This document shows, piece by piece, positions 36,477 to 38,370 of a stretch of DNA of 64,000 nt. Source of the DNA: Alphaproteobacteria bacterium. Lineage in GTDB: Bacteria > Pseudomonadota > Alphaproteobacteria > Micropepsales > Micropepsaceae. Made by a program: the position numbers and the translations under genes. The notes under the pieces are model-generated. The model searched no databases and was not told the origin of the DNA. It saw only the letters and a list, made by a program, of their open reading frames with translations. How positions within the stretch are numbered: the stretch's first letter is position 1; each line of letters starts with the position of its first letter. Location of the stretch: contig WGNJ01000001.1 of the NCBI GenBank assembly GCA_016124635.1, positions 124,001 through 188,000 on the forward strand, read 5' to 3'.

Positions 36477-36506
36477 ATCGAACCACGAAGACACAACGGC
36501 ACAAAA
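36477..36506 (+). repeat. left inverted repeat of GxxExxY unit
   Basis: These 30 bases, with the core ACCACGAAGACACAACGG, match the reverse complement of 36965-36994 at 28 of 30 positions. The two mismatches are C/T changes. The repeat begins one base after the mlaF stop. The arms are far too long to occur by chance. Confidence 0.93.
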
Positions 36507-36543
36507 GAAACTAGCGCCGCTACGCGCATTTTGGATGCCTTGT

Positions 36544-36941
36544 ATGGCCGGCGAAATACTACCGATCCCAGCCGAGACAGAGCGCATCGCCAGTATCGTC
36601 GTTGACTCTGGCTTCCAGGTTCATAGAGCGCTCGGACCGGGTTTGCTCGAGTCGGCTTACGAAACTGCCTTGCCTATGAAATTCAAAGTCGAGGATTGGC
36701 CGTCGAACGGCAGGTCGCTCTGCCTATCCGATACAAGGAGGTTACGCTCGATGCGGGTTATCGCATCGATTTACGCATCGAATCCTGCGTGATTGTTGAA
36801 CTCAAAGCCGTGGAGGCGCTGCTTCCAGTGCATCAAGCCCAACTCCTGACTCACCTCCGATTGTCAGGATGTCGATTGGGATTCCTGATGAACTTCCACG
36901 TGGCAACTTTCAAATCCGGGCTCAAACGTATGGCCTTGTGA
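36544..36941 (+). pseudogene. GxxExxY family protein (PD-(D/E)XK nuclease-like), frameshifted
   Basis: The first part, from the ATG at 36544, reads to GPGLLESAYE and contains the namesake GxxExxY motif. Around 36664-36666 one base seems to be missing: after it the frame continues as CLAYEIQSRGLAVERQVALP to GLKRMAL and the stop at 36939-36941. Joined, the product is about 132 residues, normal for the family. Nuclease-type residues sit in YRID and VELKAVE (Asp and ExK). The two parts overlap without a slippery run, so this is a decayed gene or a sequencing error. Flanked by inverted repeats. Confidence 0.85.
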
Positions 36942-36964
36942 TTTTCCGCGCGAAGCGCCCTATA

Positions 36965-36994
36965 TTTCGTGCCGTCGTGTCTTCGTGGTTCGAT
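36965..36994 (-). repeat. right inverted repeat of GxxExxY unit
   Basis: Inverted copy of 36477-36506 (28 of 30 positions), with core CCGTCGTGTCTTCGTGGT. It ends 11 nt before the radA start codon at 37006, so it now forms the radA leader. No clear ribosome-binding site follows it. Confidence 0.93.
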
Positions 36995-37005: not shown

Positions 37006-38370
37006 ATGGCCAAAGTCGCAATTCGATATGTTTGCCAATCCTGCGGCGCCGCCTACCCAAAGTGGAACGGTAAGTGCGACGCCTGCGGCGCTTGGAATTC
37101 GCTGAGTGAGGAAGCCGACGTGCCGGCGACGCCGCCGGGCGGAGGCGTAGGCTCGCCACGCGGCGGGCGCGTCATTCAGCTCGAGGCGGTCACCGGCACG
37201 TCGGCACCGCCACCGCGCCTGCTTTCCGGCATCGCGGAGTTCGACCGCGTGTGCGGCGGCGGTCTCGTGCCGGGCTGCGCCCTGCTCGTGGGCGGCGACC
37301 CAGGCATCGGCAAGTCGACGCTGCTCTTGCAAGCGATGACGGCGCTTTCGAAAAAGGGCCTCGCAACCATCTACATCTCCGGCGAAGAAGGCATTGAGCA
37401 GACGCGGCTACGGGCCAAGCGCCTGGGTCTCGAAGCCAGTCAGACGAAACTCGCCGCCGAAACATCGCTCAGGGACATCCTCGCCACCCTCGAATCCGCG
37501 GCGCCTCCCGCGGCACTGGTGGTCGATTCCATCCAAACGCTTTGGTCAGACAACATCGAGGCCGCGCCCGGAACCGTGAGCCAGGTTCGGGCCTGCGCCC
37601 AGGATCTCATCCGCTACGCCAAGAAGCGGGGCACGGCCCTCATCCTCATCGGCCACGTCACCAAGGACGGTCAGATCGCAGGCCCCCGCGTTGTCGAGCA
37701 TATGGTCGATGCCGTGCTCTACTTCGAAGGCGAGCGCGGCCATCAGTTCCGCATCCTGCGCGCGGTGAAGAACCGCTTCGGTCCAACGGATGAGATCGGC
37801 GTCTTCGAGATGACCGGTGAGGGCCTCAGCGAAGTTGCAAACCCCTCTGCCCTCTTCCTTGGACCGAAGGAAGCGCGTGCCTCAGGGGCCGCCGTATTCG
37901 CAGGCATTGAGGGAACGCGCCCCCTTCTCGTCGAGATCCAGGCCCTCGTGGCGCCCGCCGGCTATGGCGCGCCGCGGCGCGCTGTCGTCGGATGGGATTC
38001 CGCGCGCCTTGCCATGGTTCTGGCCGTGCTCGACGCGCGCGCCGAGCTCGGAATCTCAGGGCACGACGTCTATCTCAATGTCGCCGGTGGTTTGCGAATC
38101 AGCGAGCCGGCAGCCGACCTCGCCGCCGCCGGTGCGCTGGTATCGTCGCTACTCGGCGTTGTCGTTCCCTCCGACTGCGTGCTCTTCGGCGAAATAAGTC
38201 TCTCCGGAACCGTGCGCCCAGTTGGCCAGACCGAGGCCCGCTTGAAAGAGGCGCAGAAGCTCGGCTTCAAACGCGCGCTGGTGCCTCCTGGCGTCAACGG
38301 GCCGCAGGGGCTCGCCCTAATGCCAGTAGCGACCGTAGCCGGCTTGGTCGATAGGTTGCGCGCCATCTGA
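37006..38370 (+). CDS. radA: DNA repair protein RadA
   Basis: From the ATG at 37006 the product has 454 residues. A four-cysteine zinc finger (Cys10, Cys13, Cys24, Cys27) opens the protein, then Walker A GGDPGIGKST (96-105), the RadA-specific KNRFG motif, and a Lon-like C-terminal domain (GHDVYLNVAGGLRISEPA). RadA promotes branch migration in recombinational repair. Its leader consists of the right inverted repeat and TTTCTCTCTGTC with no Shine-Dalgarno sequence. Confidence 0.97.
   Translation: MAKVAIRYVCQSCGAAYPKWNGKCDACGAWNSLSEEADVPATPPGGGVGSPRGGRVIQLEAVTGTSAPPPRLLSGIAEFDRVCGGGLVPGCALLVGGDPGIGKSTLLLQAMTALSKKGLATIYISGEEGIEQTRLRAKRLGLEASQTKLAAETSLRDILATLESAAPPAALVVDSIQTLWSDNIEAAPGTVSQVRACAQDLIRYAKKRGTALILIGHVTKDGQIAGPRVVEHMVDAVLYFEGERGHQFRILRAVKNRFGPTDEIGVFEMTGEGLSEVANPSALFLGPKEARASGAAVFAGIEGTRPLLVEIQALVAPAGYGAPRRAVVGWDSARLAMVLAVLDARAELGISGHDVYLNVAGGLRISEPAADLAAAGALVSSLLGVVVPSDCVLFGEISLSGTVRPVGQTEARLKEAQKLGFKRALVPPGVNGPQGLALMPVATVAGLVDRLRAI

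Follow-up and report, generated by a model that had tools for sequence, protein, structure and literature searches.

Units made of a GxxExxY gene and the inverted repeats (arms) on either side of it appear, on well supported sequence comparisons, to move independently of the neighbouring genes. Because arms and gene were inherited together and the flanking genes were not, it is the whole unit that moves. One such unit lies between mlaF and radA in the window (the whole stretch of 64,000 nucleotides of alphaproteobacterial DNA that was analysed), and we consider it probable, taking into account the mechanism that we infer below, that it is what decay has left of a minimal mobile element with the structure arm - GxxExxY gene - arm. 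The original prediction for this segment was of a one-gene mobile unit without a transposase that spreads by relying on host recombination. Its first part gained support from the presence of arms at 86% of GxxExxY loci and from mobility at the trpD-trpC, sufB-sufC and fabD-fabG junctions of other genera; reliance on host recombination has so far not been supported.

Inverted arms and a broken gene between mlaF and radA

The window unit comprised the following features:

36477-36506, plus strand: left arm, ATCGAACCACGAAGACACAACGGCACAAAA, inverted repeat (28/30), first base 1 bp past the mlaF stop
36544-36690, plus strand: N-terminal part of the GxxExxY gene with a GPGLLESAYE motif and a frameshift at its end (TIGR04256, 29.7 bits; PF13366, 29.3 bits over 36547-36690)
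36696-36941, plus strand: C-terminal part of the GxxExxY gene (YRIDL, VELK) in another frame, a broken copy (TIGR04256, 87.7 bits, E 6.8e-25)
36948-36958, no strand: small central palindrome GCGCGAAGCGC adjoining the right arm, by sequence the counterpart of GGGCGCGAAGCGCCC in the complete palindromes of genome G009
36965-36994, minus strand: right arm, inverted repeat, reverse complement ATCGAACCACGAAGACACGACGGCACGAAA, ending 11 bp upstream of the radA ATG at 37006

The arms were inverted, 93% (28/30) complementary and spaced 458 nt apart, and the 30-bp repeats that had been predicted are therefore real. Their core, AACCACGAAGACAC, occurred exactly twice in the window, in opposite orientations, and no further copy within 1 mismatch was found in the window. 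The sole gene between the arms belonged to the GxxExxY (TIGR04256/PF13366) family; against a curated TIGR04256 cut-off of 35 bits, the C-terminal part scored above (87.7 bits) and the N-terminal part alone reached 29.7. ORF and profile searches revealed no transposase or other family-matched ORF inside the unit. The claim of a lone nuclease-like gene was correct in that this is the only gene and that Asp and ExK are kept in its C-terminal part, but it did not mention the frameshift: the N- and C-terminal parts lie in different frames, and the reading frame has been lost. In the C-terminal part, the nearly invariant Tyr of QxxxY is His.

Arms accompany GxxExxY genes across phyla

GxxExxY loci were gathered by protein similarity alone, 80 of them from named genomes of about 15 phyla, one methanogen-related archaeon included, and a second, independently drawn sample provided 29 loci from a phylum sample. 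We compared the upstream flank of each gene with its reverse-complemented downstream flank, and counted an inverted repeat when the score was at least 28. This score was reached by 97 of 113 GxxExxY genes (86%) and by 1 of 137 other ORFs at the same loci (Fisher p = 6e-51), while 0.9% of shuffles attained it. Given this difference from the control ORFs, the arms in the window are not a product of chance. The original prediction had named the absence of repeats from other GxxExxY loci as evidence against itself, and it withstood that comparison; arms of the CACGAAG type, which it had named as flanking some relatives, were also found among the arms of these loci.

The arms were built from two or three repeats of a CRCNRAG-like unit of about 9 nt, and the units seen were CACGAAG, CACAGAG, CGCAAAG, CGCCAAG, CGACGG, CACGGAT and similar ones. 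Arm letters varied between loci, and the two arms of one locus agreed. Across phyla, the letters followed the GxxExxY protein tree, also when shuffled within phyla, and the phylum label changed 37 times on that tree. Both neighbours were co-directional with the GxxExxY gene at 70 of 108 loci and both were opposed at 4, with a median gap to the neighbour of 59 bp on each side. These co-directional neighbours and short gaps suggest that GxxExxY genes may depend on operon read-through. The units sat in tight gaps between co-directional genes, right after the stop codon, and left both neighbours intact. Phages or plasmids were considered as vehicles and rejected (0 of 50,697 phage and 6 of 72,556 plasmid records).

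Units and their flanks have conflicting histories at fabD-fabG

The fabD - GxxExxY - fabG segment of a Sphingomonas parapaucimobilis replicon was used to search 121 genomes of one Sphingomonas-type genus, and about half of them gave a contiguous match. The 30 gene-free sites that were fetched mostly spanned 9-14 bp, with the fabG ribosome-binding site after a stop codon; these sites would fit gain of the unit as well as its loss. At occupied sites the arms scored at least 32 in 57 of 57 cases, and arms scored higher with their own partner (48.1) than across genomes (31.5; p < 0.001).

Arm type was defined as the A or G in CGCNRAG. For the 51 unselected genomes that provide our main result, a tree built from the flanking fabD/fabG DNA required 20 changes of arm type, which is no improvement on shuffled labels (mean 17). 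The GxxExxY tree required 4, where shuffling gave a mean of 17 and a minimum of 12. In a subset of 28 genomes, picked partly for discordant pairs, there were 12 changes on the flank tree and 1 on the protein tree, and a single clade of G-type hosts was rejected by the flank data (p-AU 4e-44) and present in the protein tree (support 88/87). Pairs such as L368/L373, L351/L353 and L378/L427 had flanks that were 94-96% identical and GxxExxY proteins that were 63-72% identical, with the drop and recovery of identity located at the arms. Diverged units in near-identical flanks, with the breaks at the arms, indicate that the unit was exchanged or re-inserted from arm to arm. Replacement of whole units between occupied sites could proceed via ordinary homologous recombination. 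Counts of independent pairs were made on the host tree and so include unit swaps alongside mutations, and we do not take them as proof of compensatory mutation in the arms.

The GxxExxY ORF at fabD-fabG ran through the right arm, which in L317 is translated as the C-terminus. In an alignment of the 57 proteins, columns near 4-8, 85, 103 and 121 tracked arm type; these are possible recognition residues, an assignment confounded by the gene tree. The junction held an insert of 1.2-1.3 kb without a GxxExxY gene at L394, L395 and L396 (genomes G415, G388 and G438). Other palindrome families, such as GTCATCCCGGC...GCCGGGATGAC and CCCTCTCCCC...GGGGAGAGGG, occupied it at L381, L404, L408, L409, L411 and L413, as would be expected of a site open to insertions in general.

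Occupied and empty states at sufB-sufC and trpD-trpC

Species of genus g81 presented several states of the same junctions. The sufB-sufC junction was empty (10-20 bp) in 6 genomes, contained a gene-less palindrome in 12 and a palindrome-bounded GxxExxY gene in G139. At trpD-trpC, the two genes overlapped by ATGA in 4 genomes, and the junction contained arm-like remnants in 2, an intact unit in 12 and a broken gene in 2. At one site in different species the arm letters differed and the arms of each pair agreed (own versus cross scores, p about 0.001). The ATGA, which both genes need, was duplicated around the trpD-trpC unit, and this duplication could have been kept by selection alone; no clear target-site duplication was found, and none was evident at fabD-fabG either. 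At two trpD-trpC loci (L267 and L269, in G122 and G309), the left arm lay within the GxxExxY frame and would be translated as the N-terminus.

The mlaF-radA junction in relatives and palindromes in the same genome

G009, the closest relative within the genus, carried an intact GxxExxY gene at the mlaF-radA junction, flanked by two complete palindromes with arms TTGAACCACGAAGAACACGAAG and centre GGGCGCGAAGCGCCC. This copy was the top relative of the C-terminal fragment in the window (69.6%), and both copies begin with GAACC, the other copies in the window's own genome (G000) having TCACC. Adjacency of mlaF and radA was seen in G000 and G009 only, both occupied, and no empty mlaF-radA allele was found. 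In the remaining nine genus members the two genes were non-adjacent or not linkable within a contig, and neither gene had an adjoining unit where it was read. From these comparisons, the site looks like one older insertion with differing decay rather than a polymorphic site. Comparison of sister genomes at this junction, which had been proposed to reveal empty sites, thus gave a mixed answer: the unit is common to G009, and there is no clean empty allele.

The window's own genome (4.51 Mb, 35 contigs) contained a second GxxExxY gene (C19:55015), 105 kb away on the same contig as the window, which was intact (138.8 bits, TIGR04256) and bounded by the arms TCACCACGACGGCGCGAAG and TCACCACGAAGGCTCAAAG in inverted orientation. 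Gene-less but complete palindromes with the same arm motif, about 80-145 bp in length, were present on contigs C6, C9 and C30. They had the layout TTCACCACGAAGACACGAAG...CTTCGTGCCTTCGTGGTGAA, with a GCGC hairpin at the centre of the longer ones, and examples identified by the arm motif were:

C30:62883-63023, gene-less palindrome
C30:62380-62522, gene-less palindrome
C6:131693-131771, gene-less palindrome
C6:132560-132638, gene-less palindrome

Like the frameshift, these palindromes had been absent from the original prediction.

The GxxExxY protein is a predicted nuclease

Structural modelling predicted that GxxExxY is a compact PD-(D/E)XK nuclease, nearest to the lambda-exonuclease/Cas4 group. 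The AlphaFold2 model, built from 52 sequences, had a pLDDT of 93.5 and a pTM of 0.87, and the solved structures closest to it were LHK-Exo, lambda exonuclease, a restriction-fold protein and SSO0001, all weak but consistent matches (probabilities 0.85-0.99, E 3e-3 and up). By sequence, none of the solved chains gave a significant match. The conserved residues (H23, E32, D72, E82-x-K84 and Q96-xxx-Y100) resemble the RecB/Cas4/lambda-exonuclease pattern. Cas4 profiles in PADLOC gave weak hits for 24 of the 52 members (E 3e-4 to 6e-3), and PADLOC yielded no defence-protein match beyond generic fold similarity.

Comparison with known elements

Taken together with the properties of known elements, these results point to GxxExxY units as an undescribed kind of minimal mobile DNA. 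Unlike an insertion sequence, the window unit has no transposase gene between its terminal inverted repeats. RAYT (TnpA-REP) genes are small enzyme genes flanked by REP/REPIN palindromes (PMC2817692, PMC3116915, PMC8266576). The tags on REPs are of the GTAG or CGTC type (PMC3733652). GxxExxY units resemble RAYT/REP systems in placing a small enzyme gene within palindromes, in the lack of a classical transposase and in dispersed intergenic gene-less palindromes, which the window's own genome contained. However, RAYT belongs to the Y1/HuH tyrosine enzymes of the IS200/IS605 type, whereas GxxExxY is modelled as PD-(D/E)XK-like, and no Y1/HuH tyrosine transposase was found between the window arms, only the PF13366/TIGR04256 gene. 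Unlike REPs, the arms of GxxExxY units are runs of a motif of about 9 nt, and it is at conserved operon junctions that GxxExxY units are exchanged.

The intervening sequences of 23S rRNA hold an S23p/four-helix-bundle ORF within terminal inverted repeats and have been described as a selfish element (PMC4990558). The window unit shares with them a single small ORF between such repeats, but lies between mlaF and radA, whereas intervening sequences reside in 23S rRNA, are excised from RNA by RNase III and encode an unrelated protein fold. MITEs are thought to be derived from insertion sequences and have been reviewed alongside ERIC-type intergenic palindromes (PMC10969869). The gene-less GxxExxY-type copies are like ERIC in being imperfect palindromes of 80-150 bp in transcribed intergenic space, but differ from MITEs in that GxxExxY is the only linked gene and no parent insertion sequence was found.

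Cas4, lambda exonuclease and RecB are similar to the modelled protein in providing the nearest solved folds, weak Cas4 profile hits and the D...ExK...QxxxY pattern, but GxxExxY genes lay outside CRISPR and phage recombination loci in the sample read. Homing endonucleases include PD-(D/E)XK enzymes such as I-Ssp6803I. They have in common with GxxExxY units a small nuclease gene, a site shared by many species, conflicting histories of gene and flanks, and empty sites in relatives; at fabD-fabG, we found a nuclease-fold gene that is present or absent at one site and has a history in conflict with its flanks. Unlike homing endonucleases, the units have no intron or intein, carry their own inverted arms and occupy many different sites. 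The unit departs from the defining features of insertion sequences, RAYT/REP systems and rRNA intervening sequences, and agrees only in part with those of homing endonucleases. The open-access PMC literature on GxxExxY contained nothing about repeats, an earlier description outside that literature being possible; the arm repeat strings appeared in no bacterial paper there (the one match was an unrelated fish paper), and nothing relevant was found on palindromes with DUF559 or nucleases.

A possible mechanism and alternative explanations

We infer that the nuclease drives the mobility of the unit. Read from the neighbouring operon, it would recognise the motif repeated in the arms, probably when this is extruded as a hairpin or cruciform or is single-stranded at a fork, and would cut or resect the DNA at that point. 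A molecule that bears the unit would then take part in repair or rejoining, by which the unit is copied into the junction, by analogy with homing endonucleases. Gene-less palindromes would be cut-down derivatives that are still open to the action of the nuclease.

As the main alternative, it may be the palindromes themselves that are mobile, through a different enzyme or through replication errors, with GxxExxY a passenger, or a domesticated repair or defence nuclease, that profits from being carried in them. We regard this as unlikely, though it deserves serious weight. Some genomes without a detected GxxExxY gene were rich in ACCRCNRAG palindromes (G148 of genus g133 with 199 pattern hits and G114 with 25; also G157 and G078), so that an engine other than GxxExxY could move gene-less palindromes. 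The passenger status of GxxExxY is also favoured by the same layout in two unrelated families, four-helix-bundle and DUF559, and by the absence of in-frame stops from the fabD-fabG copies (0/57), which suggests selection on the protein. On the other hand, arm grammar is specific to each of the three families and the arm letters of GxxExxY track the protein tree, which a generic passenger would not predict, and the units have no accompanying transposase. Among 299 genomes, the association of gene and palindromes (at least 4 pattern hits in 16/37 versus 9/262 genomes) was positive but confounded by clade, and was therefore not used as proof.

It is very improbable that GxxExxY is simply an operon gene with vertical inheritance, and that the repeats on either side of it are RNA structures (a terminator, attenuator or RNase III site), although the co-directional position within operons, the occupation of one junction across many species of a genus and the ability of the arms to pair in a transcript are in keeping with this. 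Flank and unit trees conflict strongly, sister species have tight empty junctions, and G-U-compatible mismatches in the arms of 75 loci were equal on the two strands (114 versus 120), with no indication that selection acts on the strand that is transcribed. This lack of strand bias in wobble-compatible mismatches led us to reject an RNA hairpin as the main explanation.

Just as little credence, or slightly less, is due to the suggestion that the matching of arms is a functionless outcome of template switching in quasi-palindromes or of gene conversion between arms. Heptads in the fabD-fabG arms agreed within an arm in 92% and between arms in 96% of cases, versus 51% expected for each, as concerted copying would give, and the lack of an RNA-strand bias also fits. 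Copying errors nevertheless leave unexplained why arms occur at GxxExxY genes but not at neighbouring ORFs, and why motifs are family-specific; as the origin of arm matching, they can be compatible with the mobile element that we favour. A chance repeat or an artefact of fragmentary assembly, conceivable for a window from a 35-contig assembly, is refuted by replication of the pattern in 113 genes, two independent samples and 57 orthologous sites.

Other gene families with the same layout

A great many genomes have annotated GxxExxY genes without a function, and intergenic palindromes are common without a known engine. The link between gene and palindrome makes of them a testable mobile element, below most insertion sequences in size, in bacteria and archaea. 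Exchange at core operon junctions (fab, trp, suf) leaves the operons unbroken, and the natural pairing of arm types with protein lineages makes recognition directly testable. We tentatively raise the possibility, somewhat less likely than not, that GxxExxY units form an undescribed class of minimal selfish elements, whose compact nuclease of the Cas4/lambda-exonuclease kind homes into operon junctions by means of inverted heptad arms that are self-specific and evolve concertedly, that the units of the four-helix-bundle and DUF559 families make up two more classes with the same plan and their own arms, and that together they are the source of many otherwise unexplained intergenic palindromes.

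Judged by their flanking sequences, these three unrelated small-gene families have one layout with family-specific arms; the PF05635 and DUF559 layouts were each seen in 20-30 loci. Genes of the four-helix-bundle family (PF05635) had arms of a different grammar of about 7 nt, such as GTAGGCAGTAGGCAGTAG and GTGAGGAGTGAGG, and inverted runs of this kind (GTAGGCA, GTAGTGA, GTGAGGA) were present at L286, L287, L288, L290, L291, L294, L297, L305 and L308. The intervening sequences of rRNA may be one particular form of this PF05635 arm layout. DUF559 (PF04480) genes lay between CTCCCCC...GGGGGAG palindromes, oriented either as inverted or as direct copies, which were seen at L327, L328, L332, L333, L334, L335, L336 and L338.
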